DNA of 64,000 bases from positions 38,580,382 through 38,644,381 of the forward strand of contig CM026394.1 of assembly GCA_014843695.1 (NCBI GenBank), written 5' to 3'. Shown piece after piece: positions 11,672 through 51,500 of the stretch. The notes under the pieces are model-generated. The model was not told the DNA's origin, searched no databases, and saw only the letters and a list, made by a program, of their open reading frames with translations. Within the stretch, counting starts at the first letter, position 1. Every line of letters starts with the position of its first letter. The stretch is from Archivesica marissinica (Eukaryota > Mollusca > Bivalvia > Venerida > Vesicomyidae). Both the position numbers and the translations under genes were made by a program.

Positions 11672-11757
11672 CTAATGACAACCGCACGTGCTGCAAATGT
11701 CGCAGTATGAGGAGTCCTTCAACAGTGTCGATTCAAAGAATGCCAGAGCACGGTTGT
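11672..11757 (-). CDS. TEP exon: Cys-rich C-terminus and stop
   Basis: The acceptor is TTATATTTAG. The first two bases complete a split Asp codon, and the exon reads DNRALAFFESTLLKDSS then YCDICSTCGCH and stop. The four closely spaced Cys recall the C-terminal cysteine signature of invertebrate TEPs and argue for a secreted protein rather than a GPI-anchored, CD109-like one. The stop TAG is followed at once by GTAAGA, a good donor, so a 3' UTR intron is possible. Confidence 0.8.
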
Positions 11758-12451: not shown

Positions 12452-12563
12452 CTGGCTCATAGTAGTCGAATACCCGGATGGCAGCAGGCTTGGTTTTGGC
12501 AACGAGGTCAGTTCTGATCATTTCAACAGTAGCGCACGTTTGAGGGTATATATTTGGCAATAT
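12452..12563 (-). CDS. TEP exon: end of MG8 domain
   Basis: 112 nt, phase 0 in and 1 out, donor GAGCCAG|GTACAC. It reads ILPNIYPQTCATVEMIRTD then LVAKTKPAAIRVFDYYEP. The KPA-x-I-x-V-x-DYYEP strand is diagnostic of the A2M receptor-binding domain. Confidence 0.93.
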
Positions 12564-14399: not shown

Positions 14400-14559
14400 C
14401 TGATCGTAGTACAGTACAACAGTCTTCTCGTCGCGGATTTCAGACTGTCTAACACTGTCAAGTTGTGTATCTGTGCTTTCAAGGTCAGCCGAGAAACCTG
14501 AGGGCAGATCTATCTCTATCACTGCCATGCCTGGACCAACATATCGCTGTGGTAAATAT
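14400..14559 (-). CDS. TEP exon: MG8 receptor-binding domain core
   Basis: 160 nt, phase 2 in and 0 out. It reads YLPQRYVGPGMAVIEIDLPS then GFSADLESTDTQLDS, with EKTVVLYYDQ at the end. G-M-A-V-x-E-x-x-L-P-S-G-F is the core of the A2M receptor-binding domain. Confidence 0.95.
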
Positions 14560-15267: not shown

Positions 15268-15377
15268 CTTGCACACGTTTTCAATACGACGGAGCGAAGC
15301 GTTTCCTTTACAATGGTTGTTGTTATGTTGAATGCAGGTAGGGAGACCTCTGTTTCTACATTGAATGATACAGATAC
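15268..15377 (-). CDS. TEP exon: start of MG8 domain
   Basis: 110 nt, phase 0 in and 2 out. It reads VSVSFNVETEVSLPAFNITT then TIVKETLRSVVLKTCA. V-S-x-x-F-N with P-A-F-x-I and the later Cys fit the beginning of the receptor-binding domain. Confidence 0.9.
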
Positions 15378-16546: not shown

Positions 16547-16639
16547 CTGAGCGAGCACAGATCCACTACCATGCGCTTGAAGAGAGACGGCTGGTGGATT
16601 GTTGCTATTGTTGGCATGGGATACAGCACTGTGGGGTAT
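16547..16639 (-). CDS. TEP exon: end of second CUB segment
   Basis: 93 nt, phase 0 on both sides, donor GCTCAG|GTAGAT. It reads IPHSAVSHANNSNNPPAVSL then QAHGSGSVLAQ. The A-x-G-S-G-x-x-L-x-Q ending is the usual link from CUB to MG8. Confidence 0.88.
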
Positions 16640-17540: not shown

Positions 17541-17687
17541 ATCTACAAGTTTCAAAACCATTGCTTCACTTTTGCCAATGTGGATCTGTTTTTGGAAACT
17601 GCCAGAGGTAACATCAACTGTGAGGTCAAGGCTGCCTGCGAACATCGATCCGTACTCAGACAGTGCCTGCAGACCGAGCACTGTATC
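17541..17687 (-). CDS. TEP exon: thioester-domain end into CUB
   Basis: 147 nt, phase 0 on both sides, donor GTAGAT|GTATGT. It reads DTVLGLQALSEYGSMFAGSL then DLTVDVTSGSFQKQIHI. DT-x-x-x-LQAL-x-EY is the conserved last helix of the thioester domain. Confidence 0.93.
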
Positions 17688-18390: not shown

Positions 18391-18599
18391 CTGTGTTGAT
18401 CTGAATCCTCCTCGTGAGTTACGTTGGGATACAAGCCACTGCAGGATAGGGAAGCCAGTCTGAAGTTGCCTGGTCTCTACGAGATACAGTAAGGCATATG
18501 ATGCGATCTCAACCTCCAGTGGCGGACTCTGGTAATAACTGTGCTGCCAGTGACTGAATTGCGTTCTCTTATTTGTGGAGTTCCAGAACATCTTTCCAT
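18391..18599 (-). CDS. TEP exon: late thioester domain
   Basis: 209 nt, phase 1 in and 0 out, acceptor ATTAAACAG, donor CACAG|GTAACC. It reads DGKMFWNSTNKRTQFSHWQ, then PPLEVEIASYALLYLVETRQ, then WLVSQRNSRGGFRSTQ at the end. E-x-A-S-YALL and Q-R-N-S-x-GGF-x-STQ are family hallmarks. Confidence 0.95.
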
Positions 18600-20049: not shown

Positions 20050-20236
20050 CTGCTGTTTTGACTGCTATCTTATCCAAGCTGGTGTATGACACATACGCTT
20101 CGGGGCTACCAACTTTACTGAGGGCATAACTAACAATAGCAAGCTCATAAGCATCTATGATCCTCTTGGTACGTATGGCATTTTCTAGATGTGTTCTGGC
20201 TTTTAATATTCCAGTTGCGTAGTTGTGGCGGTTATA
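20050..20236 (-). CDS. TEP exon: middle of thioester domain
   Basis: 187 nt, phase 0 in and 1 out, acceptor TTTACATTCAG, donor ACAGCAG|GTACCG. It reads YNRHNYATGILKARTHLEN, then AIRTKRIIDAYELAIVSYAL, then SKVGSPEAYVSY. LEN-A...D-x-YELAIVSYAL is the standard alpha-toroid repeat. Confidence 0.93.
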
Positions 20237-21757: not shown

Positions 21758-21835
21758 GTGTATTAGAGTTGGTTCCGCTTCCGCCAAAGCTATCAACACA
21801 AACGCTGTAAGACTGTATCCGGAACTGGAGCCTCC
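21758..21835 (-). CDS. TEP exon: thioester-domain helix
   Basis: 78 nt, phase 0 on both sides, acceptor TTGTTTCAG, donor ATACAC|GTACGA. It reads GGSSSGYSLTAFVLIALAEA then EPTLIH. GG...LTAFVLIAL follows the catalytic-His region in the family. Confidence 0.92.
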
Positions 21836-25692: not shown

Positions 25693-25849
25693 CCGAAGTG
25701 ATGAGCTGTGGACACTACCCCTAGCTGGGAAAGATCCGTCATAGTTTTGATAACGTAGAATCCAGTTGGCAGCCTGACTAAGAATGCCATCAGCTATAAA
25801 CACATGCTCTTTGGCCTGGTGGAATGACTTCAGTACAAATGCTGTCAAC
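25693..25849 (-). CDS. TEP exon: thioester domain with the catalytic-His region
   Basis: 157 nt, phase 2 in and 0 out, donor CTTCGG|GTAACG. It reads LTAFVLKSFHQAKEHVF, then IADGILSQAANWILRYQN, then YDGSFPARGSVHSSSLR. Complement C3 and many TEPs have V-I-H-x-x-x-x-G-G at the end of this segment. Here the spliced sequence is V-H-S-S-S-L-R-G-G, so His is one place early and Ser sits in the usual His position. Confidence 0.93.
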
Positions 25850-27352: not shown

Positions 27353-27434
27353 CACATGCTGCCTTGACCGTCCCTCTGTCCCCATATGCTGTATGATCCG
27401 TCTGAATGCTGGAACGTCAACTCACGCTGATAAC
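27353..27434 (-). CDS. TEP exon: thioester domain, GYQRE segment
   Basis: 82 nt, phase 1 in and 2 out, acceptor TTCAAAATAG, donor ATGTG|GTAAGG. It reads [20 protein letters not shown] then RDGQGSMW across the splice. GYQRE-L...DGSYS-x-x-G...GS-x-WLTAFV is highly conserved in TEPs. Confidence 0.95.
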
Positions 27435-29645: not shown

Positions 29646-29822
29646 CTTTATACATGTAATTTAGGGCTGTGGATGCTATCTCCTGAGTTAGCCTTCTCGT
29701 CTTCTTTAGATAGTTGTAGACAAAGACGTCTGGTGCCAGGCTTGTCATAGTTTGTTCGCCGCAACCCGTTGGCATGCGCAGTAAACTCTTCAAGTTCTTC
29801 AATGTCGGTCCCATTGTGTCAC
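29646..29822 (-). CDS. TEP exon: thioester site GCGEQ
   Basis: 177 nt, phase 1 in and 1 out, acceptor TTTTCCCTCCAG, donor TAAAG|GTAATG. It reads GDTMGPTLKNLKSLLRMPT, then GCGEQTMTSLAPDVFVYNYL, then TQEIASTALNYMYK. The Cys and Gln of GCGEQ form the internal thioester that bonds to targets, so the reactive motif is intact. Confidence 0.98.
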
Positions 29823-30423: not shown

Positions 30424-30679
30424 CGATTACTGATACTTGAATCTTTTGAGAGTCTGCGACGAAGCTTGGTGGGAAACTAAGAGGAACATCCAAGGCCGTA
30501 TGCTCGTTCAAGATCAACGGAACATTGAAGTGCATGGTTGTTCCTTCCGCCTCTACAATCAGATCCCTCTTCACCCTGTCTGCTGACAACGGTGTCTGTG
30601 CCTTCACTGCAATAGTGGCCACGCCCACTATGCTTGACACCACGGGAATGAATACAGATTCAGCCTGTCCTGCTTCGAT
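30424..30679 (-). CDS. TEP exon: end of MG7 and first CUB segment
   Basis: 256 nt, phase 0 in and 1 out, acceptor TTAAATAG, donor GTAATCG|GTAATG. It reads IEAGQAESVFIPVVSSIVG, then VATIAVKAQTPLSADRVKRD, then LIVEAEGTTMHFNVPLILNE. The A-D-x-V-x-R-x-L-x-V-E-A-E-G strand is the usual start of the CUB domain before the thioester domain. Confidence 0.93.
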
Positions 30680-33164: not shown

Positions 33165-33266
33165 ATGTACAGTTTTCACAATATCCTTCGACACAAAAGT
33201 AGTATGTCCAGGGGAGTCTTGAATTATTACTTTAAAATCGTCAGATTTCTCCAAGGTCACGACAAC
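33165..33266 (-). CDS. TEP exon: MG7
   Basis: 102 nt, phase 0 on both sides, donor GTACAT|GTAAGT. It reads VVVTLEKSDDFKVIIQDSP then GHTTFVSKDIVKTVH. V-x-V-T-L-E-x-S-D-x-F is the conserved MG7 strand. Confidence 0.93.
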
Positions 33267-34433: not shown

Positions 34434-34547
34434 ATCAAGGTCTTGTCCCATGTAGTTGAACACGTTGGCTTGGAGAACGACTTCTTCTCCTCGAACAATG
34501 GAATATGGCAAGTTGAGGTTGATGAAAAATGGTCGGAAGGTTGTAAA
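34434..34547 (-). CDS. TEP exon: start of MG7
   Basis: 114 nt, phase 0 on both sides, donor CTTGAT|GTAAGT. It reads FTTFRPFFINLNLPYSIVRG then EEVVLQANVFNYMGQDLD. F-x-P-F-F-x-x-L-N-L-PYS-x-x-R-G-E is a strong family signature. Confidence 0.97.
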
Positions 34548-34903: not shown

Positions 34904-35021
34904 TTTGGTCTTTCCGTCGGTAATTCCTAGTCCGCTGTTTCTGTTCACAGAGAATGCCGTGGCATACCATGAGGTTATTGTGTCTGGCACGGTTGTTGAT
35001 AATATGGCACTGCCGCTGGCA
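34904..35021 (-). CDS. TEP exon: A2M segment
   Basis: 118 nt, phase 2 in and 0 out, acceptor GACATTGCAG, donor CCAAA|GTACGT. It reads ASGSAILSTTVPDTITSWYA then TAFSVNRNSGLGITDGKTK. VPDTITSW-x-x-x-AF...GLG is diagnostic of the A2M domain. Confidence 0.97.
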
Positions 35022-35688: not shown

Positions 35689-35767
35689 CCTATTGTTACA
35701 CTAGTCCAAAGCCAAGTTTCTGGGAAGAAATCTCTCGTATGCTCCACTTGTTGTAGGTGCTGGGCGC
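35689..35767 (-). CDS. TEP exon: first constant exon after the bait region
   Basis: 79 nt, phase 1 in and 2 out, acceptor GTATCTAG, donor ATAGG|GTAAGA. It reads AQHLQQVEHTRDFFPETWLW then TSVTIG. V-R-x-x-F-P-E-T-W-L-W is the fixed motif that follows the bait region in A2M-family proteins. All three bait exons end in the phase this exon needs. Confidence 0.97.
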
Positions 35768-35769
35768 CT

Positions 35770-36930
35770 AGATACGAATACAGTTAAACATGGTGGTATT
35801 GAAGCTGAATACAGTTAAACATGTTGGCATTGAAGCTGAATACAGTTAAACATGGTGGTATTGAAGCTGAATACAGTTAAACATGGTGGTATTGAAGCTG
35901 AATACAGTTAAACATGGTGGCATTGAAGCTGAATACAGTTAAACATGGTGGCATTGAAGCTGAATACAGTTAAACATGGTGGCATTGAAGCTGAATACAG
36001 TGAAATATGTCGGCATTGAAGCTGAATACAGTTAAACATGGTGGCATTGAAGCTGAATACAGTTAAACATGGTGGCATTGAAGCTGAATACAGTTAAACA
36101 TGGTGGCATTGAAGCTGAATACAGTTAAACATGGTGGCATTGAAGGTGAATACAGTTAAACATGGTGGCATTGAAGCTGAATACAGTTAAACATGGTGGC
36201 ATTGAAGCTGAATACAGTTAAACATGGTGGCATTGAAGCTGAATACAGTTAAACATGGTGGCATTGAAGCTGAATACAGTTAAACATGGTGGCATTGAAG
36301 CTGAATACAGTGAAATGTGTCGGCATTGAAGCTGAATACAGTTAAACACGGTGGCATTGAAGCTGAATACAGTTAAACATGGTGGCATTGAAGCTGAATA
36401 CAGTTAAACATGGTGGCATTGAAGCTGAATACAGTTAAACATGGTGGCATTGAAGCTGAACACAGTTAAACATGGTGGCATTGAAGTTGAATACAGCTAA
36501 ACATGGTGGCATTGAAGCTGAATACAGTTAAACATGGTGGCATTGAAGCTGAATACAGTTAAACATGGTGGCATTGAAGCTGAATACAGTTAAACATGGT
36601 GGCATTGAAGCTGAATACAGTTAAACATGGTGGCATTGAAGCTGAATACAGTTAAACATGGTGGCATTGAAGCTGAATACAGTTAAACATGGTGGCATTG
36701 AAGCTGAATACAGTTAAACATGGTGGCATTGAAGCTGAATACAGTTAAACATGGTGGCATTGAAGCTGAATACAGTGAAACATGTCGGCATTGAAGCTGA
36801 ATACAGTTAAACATGGTGGCATTGAAGCTGAATACAGTTAAACATGGTGGCATTGAAGCTGAATACAGTTAAACATGGTGGCATTGAAGCTGAATACAGT
36901 GAAATATGTCGGCATTGAAGCTGAATACAG
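35770..36930. repeat. 31-bp minisatellite, about 37 copies, abutting a TEP splice acceptor
   Basis: The unit GAATACAGTTAAACATGGTG plus GCATTGAAGCT is very uniform and starts about 5 nt beyond the acceptor AG (plus strand 35768-35769). On the TEP sense strand each unit contains TTTAACTGTATTC, which resembles a branch site plus pyrimidine tract. Confidence 0.95.
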
Positions 36931-41382: not shown

Positions 41383-41726
41383 GAAGTTGTCTGTTTTCAA
41401 GATTGTAAAGAATTTATACTAAAGTAGTATGGTAGTGCAACTCTTTCAATATAAACGAGCATCGATGAAACGCGAATGTTGCCAATATGTTAAACTTGCA
41501 ATTAATCGGTTGAAAGAGAGCACTCATATTACATAACTTATTCACAAACCAGGTTTAAAATATGTATATATGTAATTAATGGGGCCGCTTCAAAACGCGT
41601 TTCTTTTTACATGTCGTGTGTTTATTATCATAGACGATGATCTGACAGCTCGGAGTAGTTGGATAATGAATGCCTGACCTGAACTAATGCCTGGAAGTGC
41701 AGTGGGTGTCTGACCGATCTGCAGAC

Positions 41727-41907
41727 CTGGCTGGGCAGTTGGTGTCTGACCGGATACCAGATATGGAAGGGCAGTGGTCGTCTGACCTGGGTAATAATGC
41801 GATCCACTACCGCCACCTGTCCCTGTATTACAGTCTATCTGCCGCTTGTAGTGCGGATGTGCCCATATAAACCTATCGACATCCGTCAGTACATGCATTC
41901 CCGACGT
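41727..41907 (-). CDS. TEP alternative bait exon 3
   Basis: The acceptor is TACTATGTTATAG, and the exon is phase 0 in and 1 out (181 nt with donor CCAG|GTCTGC). It reads TSGMHVLTDVDRFIWAHPHY then KRQIDCNTGTGGGSGS, followed by Pro/Thr/Gln-rich repeats with GQTPTA. The first 26 residues match exons 1 and 2. The tail differs completely, as expected of a protease bait. Two other GT donors in the same phase (after 41787 and within 41690) would give shorter or longer versions. Confidence 0.88.
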
Positions 41908-41919
41908 CTATAACATAGT

Positions 41920-43425
41920 AATACAGGAATTTCTTAGGGAAATATTCTTGTTTTATTATTGACGTTAACTGTAACAGAAGAATCTCATCTTTTAATTCTA
42001 TTTAAATATCTTCTCACTTCTATCTGTAAAACACATCTTATTTTCATGGCACATTATTCTAACTTACAAATTGAAATGCTTAACACGTGCATGTGCGGTG
42101 CGGTGCGTACGTACGTATGTATGTATGTATCTATGTATCTATGTTGTATCTATGTATCTATGTATGTGCTTTGTGCGTTCTACATATCACTAATACTATT
42201 ATAATGTAAAACTATTGTATTACGTTACAATACCACAACCGGTGTTTTACGGTTAACAAAAAGAGCATGAAATTAAATGCTATGTAACTATATATTGTAT
42301 ATTTTCCATCTACATATTAATAACAAAACTAACTTATAGGCCTGTGGATTGTGTGGGAATAGTAGCATGTACATAGTTTATGTATTAATTGTTTGTGTGT
42401 TCGGTATATACACGTATCGTATGTGCATTGTACATGACTTCTAAACTCATTGTTTTATGGTTAGTAGTAAATTAAAAGTTTGCATAGCTCTCTACAATGC
42501 ACAAATAAGTATGTGTTAGGTTAGTAGTATGTATAAATTATATGTAAATTACTTATATTTCCGTTGTACTGTGTTGTAGCAATACTACCATATTTATTAT
42601 AATACTGCTACCATAATTCACAAGTGCATTGGTCAATACTTTTGGCAGTATTGGTGCGTAATAAAACCCAACTCATGGACACACACCTCTTTTCAAACAA
42701 TGTAATGTTAATCAAGATTGTTATTCCTAAAATGCATACCCATTGAAACTTTGTGCTGTATTGTTCAAGATTGGTATGTTGGGCATCAATGACATGCAGG
42801 TCAAATATTACAAAGATATATTTCAGAAACAATGGCTACATCTACATGGTGGGTAGACAAGCCTATGGATACATTGGCATGTTTGATGGACATGCAGTGC
42901 GTGCCATACCGAATTATGCATTACGCGGTCATTGTGTGACACACTGATTTCTGTCAGAAGAAAGAAATTGCAAACGAGAATTTAATACGACAAAAAATGC
43001 ATAGGGTATATTTGATAAATGCTTCCTAATGATATATTATATTTTAATGTAATTTAGGGGCATATGCTCTTATATGTTAATGTATTTAATAATCCAATTC
43101 GATTAATGTTTTAGGAAATCTATGTGAGTGAGTATTTGGTTTAACGGCGCATCAGCACAGTTCAGGCTATATCGCGCCGGGTTAAGTATATTGAATACAA
43201 TTAGGAAATCTAGCAAACAATTGGCAGCGATGTGCACTCGACGCAACACCATAGAACAACCTCGGCTGACCAATAGAATTCCGATACAATCCGGATGAAA
43301 ACACACTGGAGTCGTTAATGTGTATATATCGATTTAGAACTGTAATACATGGGCCAATCGAAGTAGCCATGACGTAGCTATAATAGCATACATTATCTTA
43401 ACCAGACACTATAATTTTTATTGAA
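41920..43425. other. Between bait exons 3 and 2: no gene seen
   Basis: It holds a (TATG)n-like run at 42111-42165 and a SINE-A-like scrap near 43130-43190 (GGCGCATCAGCACAG). The rest is AT-rich. No further bait exon was found. Confidence 0.5.
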
Positions 43426-43429
43426 TACG

Positions 43430-43575
43430 TTGATGACGGTGCGGATGAAGAAGATGAAGAAAGCGACGAGGACGTTTATGACGATGCAGATGAAGAATAT
43501 GAAGAAACCGAAGTGGACGTTGATGACGATGTGGATGAAGAAGATTAAGAAACCGATGAGGACGTTAAAGATGAT
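43430..43575 (+). repeat. Short repeat encoding acidic residues
   Basis: Two to three units of about 48 bp containing GATGAAGAAGATGAAGAAA read on the plus strand as Asp/Glu runs (DEEDEESDEDV) before an in-frame stop. There is no start or splice context, so it is probably a minisatellite. Confidence 0.6.
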
Positions 43576-43834
43576 AAGAATGCTGGTAAGTTAAACTGAT
43601 CAACTGACAATACTGACATACTATTAACATATTAGACAAATTAGGTATATTCGCATTGTTGATGCTTATATAATTCGTATGTCATTTACAATGTAGCCAA
43701 CTAACTAATACCCTGCATGAATCATCGGATTCATTTTATCGCTCACCATGAGTACAGTCAACGTATATTAAAGTAGGGAAAATATATTTTTAAAAATAGC
43801 TCAGTTATATGTGCGAACATATCCCACAGCAAAC

Positions 43835-44045
43835 CTGGACTTGCTGTTGTGTACATTAACGGTGTAGTTCCTAGCATTGTTGGGTACGTCATTGTAGTAG
43901 TCGACGGCATGCCTGGCATTGTGGTAGTAAAGACATGACCATTCATACTGCTACCAGTTGCTGGGATACAGTCAACCTGTCGCTTGTAGTAAGGATGGGC
44001 CCAACTAAAGTTGTCAACGTCCGTCAGCACTTGCATGCCCGTCGT
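43835..44045 (-). CDS. TEP alternative bait exon 2
   Basis: The acceptor is AATATGTTATAG and the donor AGTCCAG|GTTTGC; 211 nt, phase 0 in and 1 out. It reads TTGMQVLTDVDNFSWAHPYY then KRQVDCIPATGSSMNG, then a Thr/Met/Pro-rich tail of about 35 residues. The G-x-x-VLTD start corresponds to the A-G-L-x-V-L-T-D strand just before the bait in CD109 and TEPs. It is one of three interchangeable cassettes. Confidence 0.92.
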
Positions 44046-44274
44046 CTATAACATATTAATTGTATTAATTATGCACAGGAACAAAATACTATCGACCGAA
44101 GACCTATATACTTATACCTTATAGCAGTGGTGTACATGTACCCTGACCTATCACAGTGGTTAATCATGACTAGTCAAAATAAACCATGAAATATATCGCT
44201 ACTATATCTTTGGACCAATGAAAATTTACTAGTCACTAATACTAATTAGGAAAGCATAGCAGGTCTAGCATGCT

Positions 44275-44550
44275 ACCTTAGCTGACCATGCGATTAGAGC
44301 TCAAGAAATGCCTAACTTCCAAGGGAAATGTGTCCTGACCATGTCATTAGAGCCCAAGGAATGCCTAACTTCCAAGGGAAATGTTTCCTGACCATGCCAT
44401 TAGAGTCCAAGGAATGCCTAATTTCCAAGAGAAATGTTTCCTGACCATGCGATTAGAGCTCAACGAATGCCTAACTTCCAAGGGAAATGTATCCTGACCA
44501 TGCGATTAGAGACCAAGGAATGCCTAACTTCCAATGGAAATGTTTCATGG
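44275..44550. repeat. About 53-bp minisatellite, five copies
   Basis: The unit includes CTGACCATGCGATTAGAG and GAATGCCTAACTTCCAAGG, with moderate divergence. Confidence 0.88.
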
Positions 44551-44923
44551 GGATAATGAACTTGAGCAATGATGTATTCAGCAAATATCGGCATCATGGG
44601 TAGTAATGAAGTTTTATTTATAAACAATTAACCATGATCACAACTGTCGAAAATAAGGATAAATCATGGATAAAAAGTTAAAAACAGATAATGCTGAACA
44701 TCGAAATGTGCTGCATTGAAACATTCTCGCTGTCCATGTTGGTTACTACGTAATGTTACTACACACTGTGTGTTGGTCTATTTTATTTATAAGATATGAA
44801 AACATTTTGCCTCTATTTAAAGGAGGGTATTATTGTTTATCAAATGTCAATCAGGTATTTTTATCAGCGAAAACGTGTGTCTGTTATATATCAATTATGT
44901 CTTTTATACTTTTTATGTCAATG

Positions 44924-45020
44924 TCCATGGGCAAGCATGTGCTGACCGACGAATACAGCTTTCAGATGGACCATCCTTCCACGGTGTATTCCAGGAACGA
45001 GAGGGCATGTTATCCTTACC
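44924..45020 (+). pseudogene. Inverted, dead copy of a TEP bait exon
   Basis: On the plus strand, opposite to the gene, the sequence reads SMGKHVLTDEYSFQMDHPS then TVYSRNERACYPY. It aligns with the bait exons from base to base at GGC-A-G-CA--GTGCTGAC-GAC and CATCCT. The expected acceptor context TATGTTATAG has become TATGTCAATG, so the splice AG is lost. The frame stays open to a stop at 45061. An inverted exon cannot enter the TEP mRNA. Confidence 0.65.
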
Positions 45021-45522
45021 TGTGTGATGTACAAACTAACCAATATGCTAGTCTAGTCTAGACAGACTTACATTGTTAGTTTAAACAATATGTATTTCTT
45101 TAAATAAACATAGTCAAGTATAAGTAATATGTACATACATGTAGGATTGAGGAGAAAGCAACCTGCTAGTATGGCTACCTCTTTCTTACTTGTTGATAGC
45201 AAACCAATGTCGCTGCTCCGTGTTCTGTTTCGTGTGACCATGCGCGTCGGTGTCAGCATTGGTAATACTATTGAGCTTAGCATGTAGTTACACCTACCTT
45301 ACGACAAACATCTGTTCTTCACATGAGAAACATGGGCCTTGCCCTTAACGGTGCCACAATAGATTGATTATCAAAGGGGAGATACACTGGGCGGTACACA
45401 ACTGCAAAGTCTAGCACTCAATCAAGATATATGTGTAAGAACAAAGTTTAAAATATTTACCCAACTCATGTTGGTTGATTTGGAGAGGTTTTATTTGTTT
45501 CGACCATGCCTTCAGAGATTCT

Positions 45523-45768
45523 TTAAACTTTATTTATTTTACAATGATTGCGAAGCAAGTTCTAAGAACTTATATTAATCATTCTCGTTTGCGCGGATGA
45601 ACGCGTAAATGTGGTTATTCGTGTGAGAGGAAACCGGAGTACCCGGAGAAAACCCACGTGTCCGATCTGGCGACCACAGTACCATCTCACATACTTCACG
45701 GTCCAAGGATCGAACCAGGGTTGCAATGGTGAGAAGCGACCGCGCTAACCACTGCGCTAATCGGGCAG
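45523..45768 (-). mobile_element. SINE-D copy
   Basis: It is full length from TTTAAACTTTATTTATTTTA to CACTGCGCTAATCGGGCAG, lying between bait exons 2 and 1. Confidence 0.92.
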
Positions 45769-46989
45769 CCTTCAGAGATTAATATTTACTATGTATTTTA
45801 GAATTATCTCAATACATTAGTGTCGTATGTTGTTCAAAAGATTAGATTAGCGCTATATTATACTGGGATTATTTAGTAGGTGTATATGTTAAGCAACTAT
45901 AATACTTTCGATTGTTCCTAGCAGGGAACTAGTAATATATATATTATCCGGCTCTCTATATTAGATTTTTCGGCTTAGAAGCCTTTTTCACGGGAAACAT
46001 AAATCATTAAGAAAACTAAATGACAAATTCCATTGGAGTTGAAAGTGGAGTTGATATGCACAATTATGCTTGGCATAATCCAATCCAAAGTTTCATTGAT
46101 TTCTGGCCAAATGGTTGCTGAGAAATAGCACGGTCAAGAATAACAGGACGGATGGAACCAAAGAGAAATAACTCAATGAAATATCAGTCCAGTGACATGC
46201 GCCGATGAGATGCACTACTAGGCTTTGTACCAATCGATTCTGAGAAGTTTCCCTGATTCCCGGAAAATAGTTGCTGAGAAATAGCGCGACCAAGAATAGC
46301 AGGACGGAGGGAATCAAAGAGAATTAACTCAATGAAATATCAGTCCAGTGACATGCGCCGATGAGATGCACTACTAGGCTTTGTACCAATCGATTCTGAG
46401 AAGTTTCCCTGATTCCCGGAAAATAGTTGCTGAGAAATAGCGCGACCAAGAATAGCAGGACGGAGGGAATCAAAGAGAATTAACTCAATGAAATATCAGT
46501 CCAGTGACATGCGCCGATGAGATGCACTACTAGGCTTTGTACCAATCGATTCTGAGAAGTTTCCCTGATTCCCGGAAAATAGTTGCTGAGAAATAGCGCG
46601 ACCAAGAATAGCAGGACGGAGGGAATCAAAGAGAATTAACTCAATGAAATATCAGTCCAGTGAAATACTGCTTGGTGAAAGTGAAAGGCTTTGTACCAGT
46701 CAGTTCTGAGAAGTTTCACTGATTGCCGGCCAATTGGTTGCTGACAAATAGCGCGACCAAGAATAGCAGGACGGAGGGAATCAAAGAGAATTAACTCAAT
46801 GAAATATCAGTCCAGTGAAATACTGCTTGGTGAAAGTGAAAGGCTTTGTACCAGTCAGTTCTGAGAAGTTTCACTGATTGCCGGCCAATTGGTTGCTGAC
46901 AAATAGCGCGACCAAGAATAGCAGGACGGAGGGAATCAAAGAGCCATAACTGAATGAAAAGTGGAACGCCGATGATATGTACAATTAGT

Positions 46990-47252
46990 TATGTTATATT
47001 TCGCGTTTTACGCCTGCATCAGCACCATTTTGGGCTATATCGCCGGCGGGCAGTTTACCTAACAACACCTTTCCTGGGCAGGCTCCAGCGGTTAACCAGT
47101 ACTTGGGTGCACCAACCTCCGTAAGAAACTGCCAACGTTTTCATATAAATGAGACACGGCCTGAGCGGGGCTCGAACCCGTGACCATCAGTGATGATAGG
47201 TTACAGTGGTATACAAGTCAGCGGCCTTAACCACTCGACCATGGAGGCGGAC
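46990..47252 (-). mobile_element. SINE-A copy inside the 156-bp array
   Basis: Full length. Similar TGTACAA words on both sides suggest a short target duplication. The insertion postdates the array around it. Confidence 0.92.
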
Positions 47253-47461
47253 TGTGTACAACTAGACTTGACCACTCACTCATGATAAGTTTCACTGTTT
47301 TTCGGTCAGTGGTTCTAAGAATAGAGCGGGAAAAATGCTATGTATACTATATGAATAAAAAGGAAAGGGCCATACCATGAACACTTATCCGAGTGGAACG
47401 CGCCGGCGATATGCACAACTAGGATTGTTTCCAAGGATTGTTTCCAATCACTCCTGTGATG

Positions 47462-47560
47462 TTTCATCGATATCTGTTTCGATATCTGTTTCATCGATAT
47501 CTGTTTCGATATCTGTTTCATCGATATCTGTTTCGATATCTGTTTCATCGATATCTGTTC
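47462..47560. repeat. 27-bp minisatellite
   Basis: CATCGATATCTGTTTCGATA plus TCTGTTT repeats about 3.5 times. The unit itself contains a doubled GATATCTGTTT. Confidence 0.93.
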
Positions 47561-48011
47561 AGTGGTTGGTGAGAAATAGCGCGGATAAAAATAACAGGAT
47601 GTACGGATGGAAAGGACCAAAACTCAATGAAAAATCATCCGAGTAGAACGTGACGATGATATGCACAGCTAGGCTTGGTATCATTCACTCCTGTGAAGTT
47701 TTATTGATTTACGGACAGTGATTGCTGAGCCATACAGCTGAGATGAACAATGGGACGCACGGACGGAGCAGTGACTATATGCTTCCCCTTTCGGAGAATA
47801 AAATCGATACCAGCTACCATTGGTTGGTATTAGCGACGATCGCTATTAATATTTATCATCGACGTAAGTTCCTTTTATGTCAATAAAACAATTTTTAATA
47901 AATACGGTAACAAATAATTAACATTCAGTCTGATACTGAGGAGAGGCAAATTAAAGAGATGATGGTGGTTTGAATGTGGGATACTTAGATTAGAAAGTGT
48001 GTACGTGCTAC

Positions 48012-48147
48012 CTGGAGATGTGCCCGTTTCGAAACCACTAGAAGTGCCTGTTCCTCCCGTTGATGGATTGCAGTCTATTTGTCTCTTGTAATACGGATGG
48101 GCCCAACTAAAACTGGTAACGTCAGTCAGAACGTGGATGCCTGCCGT
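48012..48147 (-). CDS. TEP alternative bait exon 1
   Basis: The acceptor is CACTATGATACAG and the donor TCTCCAG|GTAGCA; 136 nt, phase 0 in and 1 out. It reads TAGIHVLTDVTSFSWAHPYY then KRQIDCNPSTGGTGTSSG and a short Ser/Thr/Gly tail. It has the shortest bait of the three (45 codons against 60 and 70). No further TEP exon was recognised upstream (to the right) in this window. Confidence 0.92.
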
Positions 48148-50500: not shown

Positions 50501-51500
50501 NNNNNNNNNNNNNNNNNNNNNNNNNNNNNNNNNNNNNNNNNNNNNNNNNNNNNNNNNNNNNNNNNNNNNNNNNNNNNNNNNNNNNNNNNNNNNNNNNNNN
50601 NNNNNNNNNNNNNNNNNNNNNNNNNNNNNNNNNNNNNNNNNNNNNNNNNNNNNNNNNNNNNNNNNNNNNNNNNNNNNNNNNNNNNNNNNNNNNNNNNNNN
50701 NNNNNNNNNNNNNNNNNNNNNNNNNNNNNNNNNNNNNNNNNNNNNNNNNNNNNNNNNNNNNNNNNNNNNNNNNNNNNNNNNNNNNNNNNNNNNNNNNNNN
50801 NNNNNNNNNNNNNNNNNNNNNNNNNNNNNNNNNNNNNNNNNNNNNNNNNNNNNNNNNNNNNNNNNNNNNNNNNNNNNNNNNNNNNNNNNNNNNNNNNNNN
50901 NNNNNNNNNNNNNNNNNNNNNNNNNNNNNNNNNNNNNNNNNNNNNNNNNNNNNNNNNNNNNNNNNNNNNNNNNNNNNNNNNNNNNNNNNNNNNNNNNNNN
51001 NNNNNNNNNNNNNNNNNNNNNNNNNNNNNNNNNNNNNNNNNNNNNNNNNNNNNNNNNNNNNNNNNNNNNNNNNNNNNNNNNNNNNNNNNNNNNNNNNNNN
51101 NNNNNNNNNNNNNNNNNNNNNNNNNNNNNNNNNNNNNNNNNNNNNNNNNNNNNNNNNNNNNNNNNNNNNNNNNNNNNNNNNNNNNNNNNNNNNNNNNNNN
51201 NNNNNNNNNNNNNNNNNNNNNNNNNNNNNNNNNNNNNNNNNNNNNNNNNNNNNNNNNNNNNNNNNNNNNNNNNNNNNNNNNNNNNNNNNNNNNNNNNNNN
51301 NNNNNNNNNNNNNNNNNNNNNNNNNNNNNNNNNNNNNNNNNNNNNNNNNNNNNNNNNNNNNNNNNNNNNNNNNNNNNNNNNNNNNNNNNNNNNNNNNNNN
51401 NNNNNNNNNNNNNNNNNNNNNNNNNNNNNNNNNNNNNNNNNNNNNNNNNNNNNNNNNNNNNNNNNNNNNNNNNNNNNNNNNNNNNNNNNNNNNNNNNNNN
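50501..51500. other. Assembly gap of exactly 1000 N
   Basis: A round-number run of N between two tandem arrays, so the true length is unknown. Confidence 1.

Follow-up and report, generated by a model that had tools for sequence, protein, structure and literature searches.

The window analysed here, 64,000 nucleotides from the bivalve Archivesica marissinica (C9:38580382-38644381 of the 1.54-Gb genome), carries on its minus strand the downstream half of a gene that, judged from its domains, is a TEP/CD109-type member of the alpha-2-macroglobulin (A2M) superfamily. Ahead of this half lie three tandem exons, E1 to E3, which a preliminary description of the sequence had taken for mutually exclusive exons encoding the bait region of the protein. 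These start cassettes are given below; positions without a prefix are those of the window.

48012..48147, minus strand: start cassette E1, 136 nt, phase 0 to 1, encoding TAGIHVLTDVTSFSWAHPYYKRQIDC followed by the tail NPSTGGTGTSSGFETGTSPG
43835..44045, minus strand: start cassette E2, 211 nt, phase 0 to 1, with a threonine-rich tail
41679..41907, minus strand: start cassette E3, 229 nt (181 nt with the donor at 41727), phase 0 to 1

The cassettes have in common the start motif TxGxxVLTDV..YKRQxDC, and their 26-residue starts (in E2 TTGMQVLTDVDNFSWAHPYYKRQVDC and in E3 TSGMHVLTDVDRFIWAHPHYKRQIDC) are pairwise identical at 20 of 26 residues. The mutual BLOSUM62 scores of these starts are 119-122, as against 34 for the best of the 30,399 other six-frame stretches of 26 residues in the window. 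The six-frame comparison revealed no start cassette in the window beyond E1-E3, and a genome-wide cassette search (40 of 40 candidates scored, E up to 1) matched only E1 (twice), E2, E3 and a fourth cassette, A, which lies outside the window. The shared start was thus present as first described, as were the phases: the lengths of E1-E3 (136, 211, and 181 or 229 nt) are each 1 mod 3, and the upstream constant exon ends in phase 0. The sequence TATG(A/T)TA(C/T)AG, proposed earlier as a common acceptor motif, has four occurrences in the window, of which three coincide exactly with the acceptors of E1-E3; cassette A lacks it, which confines the proposal to the three cassettes of the window.

Substitutions between the shared starts fall mainly at third codon positions (11 of 17, 16 of 22 and 12 of 17 in the three pairs). 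dN is 0.12-0.13, dS is 1.1-1.3 in two pairs and not computable for E1/E3, and dN/dS is near 0.1 in the two computable pairs. In their 1.5-kb flanks E1-E3 have nothing in common but matches of 11-15 nt, of which one (E2/E3) is at the acceptor; RNA pairing of the Dscam docking/selector kind was not searched. The third-position bias, together with the near-unrelated flanking introns, indicates that the start copies are old and have been kept by selection, and on this pattern of substitution purifying selection acts on the shared start. No significant likeness was seen among the tails of E1, E2 and E3, whose pairwise scores were reached by 191, 690 and 60 of 1000 shuffles, in agreement with their description as unrelated. 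By these sequence tests E1-E3 are real, alternative exons.

The 3′ end of E3 is uncertain. Ten phase-1 GT sites are present, the best being those at 41679 (score 6.4), 41787 (5.7) and 41727 (4.0); the last, initially chosen as the donor, is a valid phase-1 GT but scores below the other two. The GT after 41611 scores 8.0 but is in the wrong phase. The form ending at 41679 aligns with the tail of Mercenaria P0124 almost up to the counterpart of exon C. The E3 tail is made of GQTPTAQPG-like repeats with several phase-1 GT sites, and its length could therefore vary by donor choice. Within window positions 41787-41679 (minus strand) the repeat units contain GGTCAG four times and GGTCTG once, each a possible phase-1 donor.

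Constant exons and reading frame

The downstream constant half extends from exon C to the stop codon. Limits are those of the gene model unless stated otherwise.

35689..35767, minus strand: constant exon C, 79 nt, phase 1 to 2, GAQHLQQVEHTRDFFPETWLWTSVTIG, holding the fixed FPETWLW
34904..35021, minus strand: constant exon, A2M domain (Pfam PF00207)
34434..34547, minus strand: constant exon, A2M domain (Pfam)
33165..33266, minus strand: constant exon
30424..30679, minus strand: constant exon before the thioester domain (TED)
29646..29822, minus strand: constant exon with the thioester motif GCGEQ (TED, PF07678)
27353..27434, minus strand: constant exon, TED
25693..25849, minus strand: constant exon, TED
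21758..21835, minus strand: constant exon, TED, 3′ end less certain
20050..20236, minus strand: constant exon, TED
18391..18599, minus strand: constant exon, TED
17541..17687, minus strand: constant exon
16547..16639, minus strand: constant exon IPHSAVSHANNSNNPPAVSLQAHGSGSVLAQ, 93 nt, frame kept, from a tblastn match with limits set by eye
15268..15377, minus strand: constant exon
14400..14559, minus strand: constant exon, receptor-binding domain (PF07677)
12452..12563, minus strand: constant exon, receptor-binding domain (Pfam)
11672..11757, minus strand: last exon with stop, DNRALAFFESTLLKDSSYCDICSTCGCH*, from a tblastn match at 11758-11678 with limits set by eye

The gene model comprises 16 exons (E2, C and 14 more), with GT-AG introns at every junction; the exons at 16639-16547 and 11757-11672 were added afterwards. 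Its product matches the A2M (PF00207, 6.1e-29), thioester (PF07678, 2.6e-90) and receptor-binding (PF07677, 6.4e-15) domains, and the GCGEQ motif in exon 29822-29646 is intact. A 31-bp minisatellite of 37 copies (window 35776-36930) stops 8 nt short of exon C, which would place the branch-point region of the shared acceptor within tandem repeats.

E2 is in frame with the whole model, and E1, E2 and both forms of E3 read through exon C down to 17541, as had been claimed for splicing into 35689-35767. Each cassette alone stays open. Two of E1-E3 in series meet a stop in all six ordered pairs (E3 taken to 41727), and an early stop is also met when all three are joined or all three are skipped. 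The earlier frame argument therefore stands, and by this logic mutual exclusion would be enforced at the level of usable message.

The donors of E1, E2, E3 and A score 5.5, 4.0, 6.4 and 9.1, respectively, the best phase-1 donor of E2 being CAG/GTTTGC (the slash marks the exon end). The strength of the A donor would suit a gene in which a single cassette, for example A, is used and E1-E3 are relics without function. This explanation is very improbable given that E1-E3 are all open, with the same phases and with splice sites, that their starts show the third-position bias and the low dN/dS in both computable pairs, and that the E3 tail is conserved in Mercenaria and Ruditapes.

The upstream half and its place in the assembly

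No N-terminal macroglobulin domain was found in the window by tblastn with relatives. Upstream exons had been sought at 48-64 kb of the window, a region whose part beyond 51,500 lies across an assembly gap, and the candidate was rejected because none was among the tblastn matches listed (120 relatives with E up to 0.05, best per bin; 14 closer relatives, best 40 hits; seven relatives with E up to 0.001, best per bin). An open stretch at 55232-55005 (minus strand) encodes a THAP domain (PF05485, 3e-09) and possibly belongs to a transposon. The probable macroglobulin-domain half of the gene is found on the plus strand at C9:38494.6-38540.4 kb (280 bases outside coverage), where 542 of 590 residues of the relative P0121 (79-668) are covered; its exons are in order up to C9:38521 kb.

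C9:38518445-38518522, plus strand: upstream constant exon VISSLKLASHSSSDSSALHDPKRVMK (..HDPKRVMK), ending in phase 0, donor GTACGA
C9:38520812-38520950, plus strand: start cassette A, 139 nt, 1 mod 3, TTGMHVLTDVDSFSWAHPYYKRQIDC followed by PPTPAPGVTYHPGQYPTWVPG
C9:38522862-38522921, plus strand: tail-only exon B1, 60 nt, phase 1 to 1
C9:38523007-38523123, plus strand: tail-only exon B2, 117 nt, phase 1 to 1
C9:38528372-38528507, plus strand: second copy of E1, an exact nucleotide match (136/136)
50501..51500 of the window: assembly gap of 1000 N, at the end of the gap-free stretch C9:38531426-38630881 that carries the gene

The two copies of E1 sit in opposite orientation within ∼2.3 kb shared at 94-100%, and both are ∼2 kb from 1-kb gaps (window 50501-51500 and C9:38530426-38531425). 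Just past the shared block one copy enters an apparent retrotransposon, recognised by eye only. The simplest reading is that the gap-free stretch C9:38531426-38630881 was placed backwards, with its end overlapping its neighbour unmerged; flipping it gives the order upstream constant exon, A, B1, B2, E1, E2, E3, and exon C to the stop. A real inversion or an inverted duplication is a possible alternative.

The duplicated E1 and the placement of the upstream and downstream halves on oppositely oriented stretches could also mean that the exons come from different gene copies or haplotypes, or from an inverted duplication, and that the array is an artefact of assembly or of paralogues. This is very improbable. 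No gap separates E1, E2, E3 and exon C, and both copies of E1 lie ∼2 kb from a 1-kb gap, a position to be expected if contig ends overlap without having been merged. In addition, among the 32 of 144 candidates scored, the genome yielded one upstream and one downstream half of this type of gene, which suggests that the two halves belong to one gene.

A minus-strand search by tblastn with seven relatives, from the array to C9:38804381 (partly N, including 5,000 N directly after the window), yielded no macroglobulin-domain exon but a first-exon match at 38732113-38731946, and TEP-derived repeats at C9:38728.6-38729.7 kb. This first coding exon (C9:38731946-38732113, minus strand) lies on another stretch than that at C9:38494554-38496233 (plus strand). 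Both places share ∼1-kb tandem repeats (93-97%) resembling TEP exon sequence (DHPHKPVAYTLLINGLSGQFFQIQVP), which suggests a second scaffolding error.

Given that B1 and B2 run from phase 1 to phase 1, the frame is kept when they follow A, and A, A+B1, A+B2 and A+B1+B2 are all open. The A/B2 join (YPTWVPG/MLPTPAPG) was compared with four relatives and is matched inside the baits of all four (Mercenaria P0122, Mactra P0127, Mya P0132 and Dreissena P0134); B1 opens alike (MVATPAPG), so that the match fits B1 or B2. The tail-only pieces near C9:38522.9-38523.1 kb had also been considered as decayed cassettes. This was rejected on account of their phases, their good donors and the A/B2 join in relatives; descent of B1 and B2 from full cassettes is possible. 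With at least four start cassettes, and tail exons that can follow A in series, the choice first described as one of three holds as frame logic for E1-E3 but not for the gene, whose bait may be partly combinatorial.

Relatives, tails and the bait

Relatives were retrieved in three lists, the best 120 of each, the second scored on residues 143-343 of the model, which lie after the bait, and the third on its residues 12-162; together they gave 283 proteins. The closest among the matches listed are CD109-like TEPs of Mercenaria, Ruditapes, Mactra, Mya, Dreissena and Sinanodonta, and exon C is 67-87% identical to the Mercenaria and Ruditapes relatives within the aligned stretches. The start motif is present in 14 of the 283 proteins, exactly once in each. 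It is followed by a tail and then by the counterpart of exon C in 12 of these; P0123 and P0129 were set aside for their cysteine-rich baits. The latter two have 19 cysteines in the 180 residues before FPETW/FLETW. ShK-like domains (PF01549, 2.2e-05 and 4.7e-05) lie in the baits of P0123 (Ruditapes) and P0129, and possibly in that of P0027 (Saccostrea); no report of ShK domains in TEP baits was found by title among the open-access papers listed.

In a tree of 42 rows, from which four relatives without a match to the FPETW pattern were left out, the window gene falls in a 16-row clade (100/100), beside five Mercenaria and Ruditapes rows (92/82), and apart from a 14-row bivalve group with the scallop protein CfTEP (95/93). 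Given the long branches of several outer rows and the open deep forks, the order of the deep splits is unsure. Alignment of a Mercenaria relative with human CD109 structures (8s3o, 9fx2) placed the shared start before the bait (vmkttGmqlLTDv in Mercenaria, vfqecGlwvLTDa in CD109) and the tail between the start and FPETW. We take the shared start to be the last strand of domain MG6, with the bait right after it. The domains, the thioester and this alignment agree with the initial assignment of tandem alternative exons at the bait position of a TEP gene.

The E3 tail is homologous to those of P0124 and P0126, from Mercenaria and Ruditapes (0 of 1000 and again 0 of 2000 shuffles), and the A tail is related to P0122 (0 of 2000). 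More widely, the A tail is akin to the tails of 7 of the 12 relatives (at most 2 of 2000 shuffles), as is the E3 tail, likewise to 7 of 12, and the tails of A and E3 are themselves somewhat alike (8 of 2000 shuffles).

The window tails consist of 23% threonine, 19% glycine, 12% proline and 11% serine, with no lysine or arginine among 116 residues (0/137 with A). These residues are also few in relatives' tails (7/518 in the same type, from 12 proteins, and 10/1047 in the scallop type, from 31 proteins of which 12 are isoforms of two genes), as against 84/1487 in 45 other TEP tails of mixed origin. The ten tails of a second TEP gene described below (12/295) depart from this general rule. The tails of the window thus offer no site for trypsin-like enzymes, so that any cutting in them would fall to other classes, and the proteases concerned would more likely be metallo-, elastase- or subtilisin-like.

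This composition also fits a role as glycosylated spacers. The exons would then be real alternatives whose mucin-like, O-glycosylated tails tune length, folding or sugar display, and the protease would cut in the shared YKRQ stretch, which is kept in E1-E3, or elsewhere, so that the choice of tail would set no protease specificity. The abundance of threonine, glycine, proline and serine and the scarcity of basic residues in the window and in relatives speak for such a role, which is nonetheless doubtful: the tails occupy what we take to be the A2M/CD109 bait position, and a lack of basic residues does not protect a tail from proteases of other classes. Moreover, this position is taken as the cleavage site in the TEPs of snail and scallop, and the scallop isoforms respond to challenge (PMC7016707).

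The array most probably represents a set of swappable baits of one TEP/CD109-type gene, in a clam near Mercenaria and Ruditapes, with one start cassette per protein. Each start cassette (A, E1, E2 or E3) would encode the lead-in to the bait and a bait tail, from phase 0 to phase 1, and splicing would pick one per transcript and place it between the upstream constant exon (..HDPKRVMK, phase 0) and exon C (..QQVEHTRDFFPETWLW). Two of E1-E3, or none, would shift the frame into a stop and the faulty transcripts would be removed, so that each protein would carry one start cassette; A would probably be lengthened by B1 and B2. That the tails act as baits would follow from their position and from knowledge of the family. 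Cutting of the tail would trigger the thioester, and we infer that different tails answer to different proteases and that the cassettes are under immune regulation. In the hard clam several TEP transcripts rise in lesions caused by a protistan parasite, the baits not being resolved in that account (PMC4769524).

Several observations weigh against swappable baits. The donors of E1-E3 are weak relative to the 15 constant donors (leave-one-out median 6.6, lowest 0.5), which fits regulated exons but also poorly used ones, and higher-scoring GT sites in other phases are present in E2 and E3. The tails of E1 and E2 have no significant relative among the 12, the relatives are mostly gene predictions with one form each, and the two halves of the gene are in opposite orientation in the assembly. 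The splicing of the cassettes is predicted from genomic DNA. Finally, Haliotis cracherodii P0177 (isoform X1), a predicted protein, seems to join two cassettes of the other type, described below, in series, and Pinctada P0157 looks similar; these either count against strict exclusion or are wrong gene models.

Comparison with other arrays of bait exons

A second TEP gene provides a comparison within the same genome.

C6:24974.8-24999.6 kb: second TEP gene, with ten cassettes at C6:24981506-24995057, minus strand

In this gene a separate constant exon (64 nt, phase 0 to 1) encodes the pre-bait stretch, and after it stand ten cassettes in tandem, each consisting of tail plus FPETWLW. All ten are open, 1 mod 3 and provided with a phase-2 donor, running from phase 1 to phase 2 and ending in FPETWLWxNxTx; two read FQETW and FLETW. 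Acceptors were picked by hand among phase-matching AGs. In both genes a phase-0 intron precedes the pre-bait stretch and a phase-2 intron follows FPETWLWxNxTx/TSVTIG, whereas the inner phase-1 intron lies on different sides of the bait. The side on which it lies determines which exon was multiplied.

The scallop Chlamys (Azumapecten) farreri CfTEP, with seven isoforms from six mutually exclusive exons (as cited in PMC7016707), resembles the window gene as a bivalve TEP/CD109-type gene with alternative exons at the bait position and, probably in the window gene as well, one form per protein. In contrast, the five forms aligned (CfTEP-B to -F) are constant through the pre-bait stretch (..VYHHVEPHIYYP) and vary up to FPETWLWxNxTxG. 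The multiplied exon of CfTEP is thus tail plus FPETWLW, whereas that of the window gene is start plus tail, with FPETWLW constant; the likeness to a scallop TEP noted at the outset holds in principle and not in layout, because the multiplied exon differs. The scallop layout is instead that of the C6 gene. Seven Haliotis isoforms likewise have a constant pre-bait stretch and vary up to FPETWLWxNxTxG, and differ also by an N-terminal extension.

The presence of both packagings in one genome suggests that mollusc TEPs acquired bait swapping on at least two occasions, through multiplication of different exons of one module, a view that is somewhat favoured here. The bait would be bounded by phase-1 introns, one lineage (scallop, abalone and the C6 gene) having multiplied the 1-to-2 exon and another (the window gene) the 0-to-1 exon, with 1-to-1 tail-only extension exons in addition. 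If so, one clam genome holds two separately built, separately choosable bait repertoires, and it could be studied in a single animal whether different infections call up different baits. Through alternative bait exons an immune effector can be varied without lymphocytes; two arrays of different construction in one genome, together with bait-tail types common to clam genera, would suggest that variety of the bait has been selected for repeatedly. The lack of lysine and arginine in the tails of the window gene narrows the protease classes able to trigger them.

No paper on the splicing of clam TEPs with this cassette type was found in the open-access literature, most subscription journals lying outside it. 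Among described systems, Biomphalaria glabrata BgTEP2 has 12 mutually exclusive tandem exons over 30 kb, in each of which the conserved residues are C-terminal (PMC7016707). It is like the window gene in its tandem exons at the bait, of which the window gene, too, would use one of many, and unlike it in that the conserved residues of the window cassettes are N-terminal. Drosophila TEP2 (five), shrimp A2M-2 (six) and tick A2M have splice variants in a bait-like region (PMC7016707, PMC2685406), a likeness by description only. With several bait exons in tandem, as in CfTEP and BgTEP2, the window gene thus belongs to a kind already known; the packaging of start with tail, the tail-only exons that can extend a cassette, and the coexistence of the two packagings in one genome appear to be new as far as the open-access literature searched shows.

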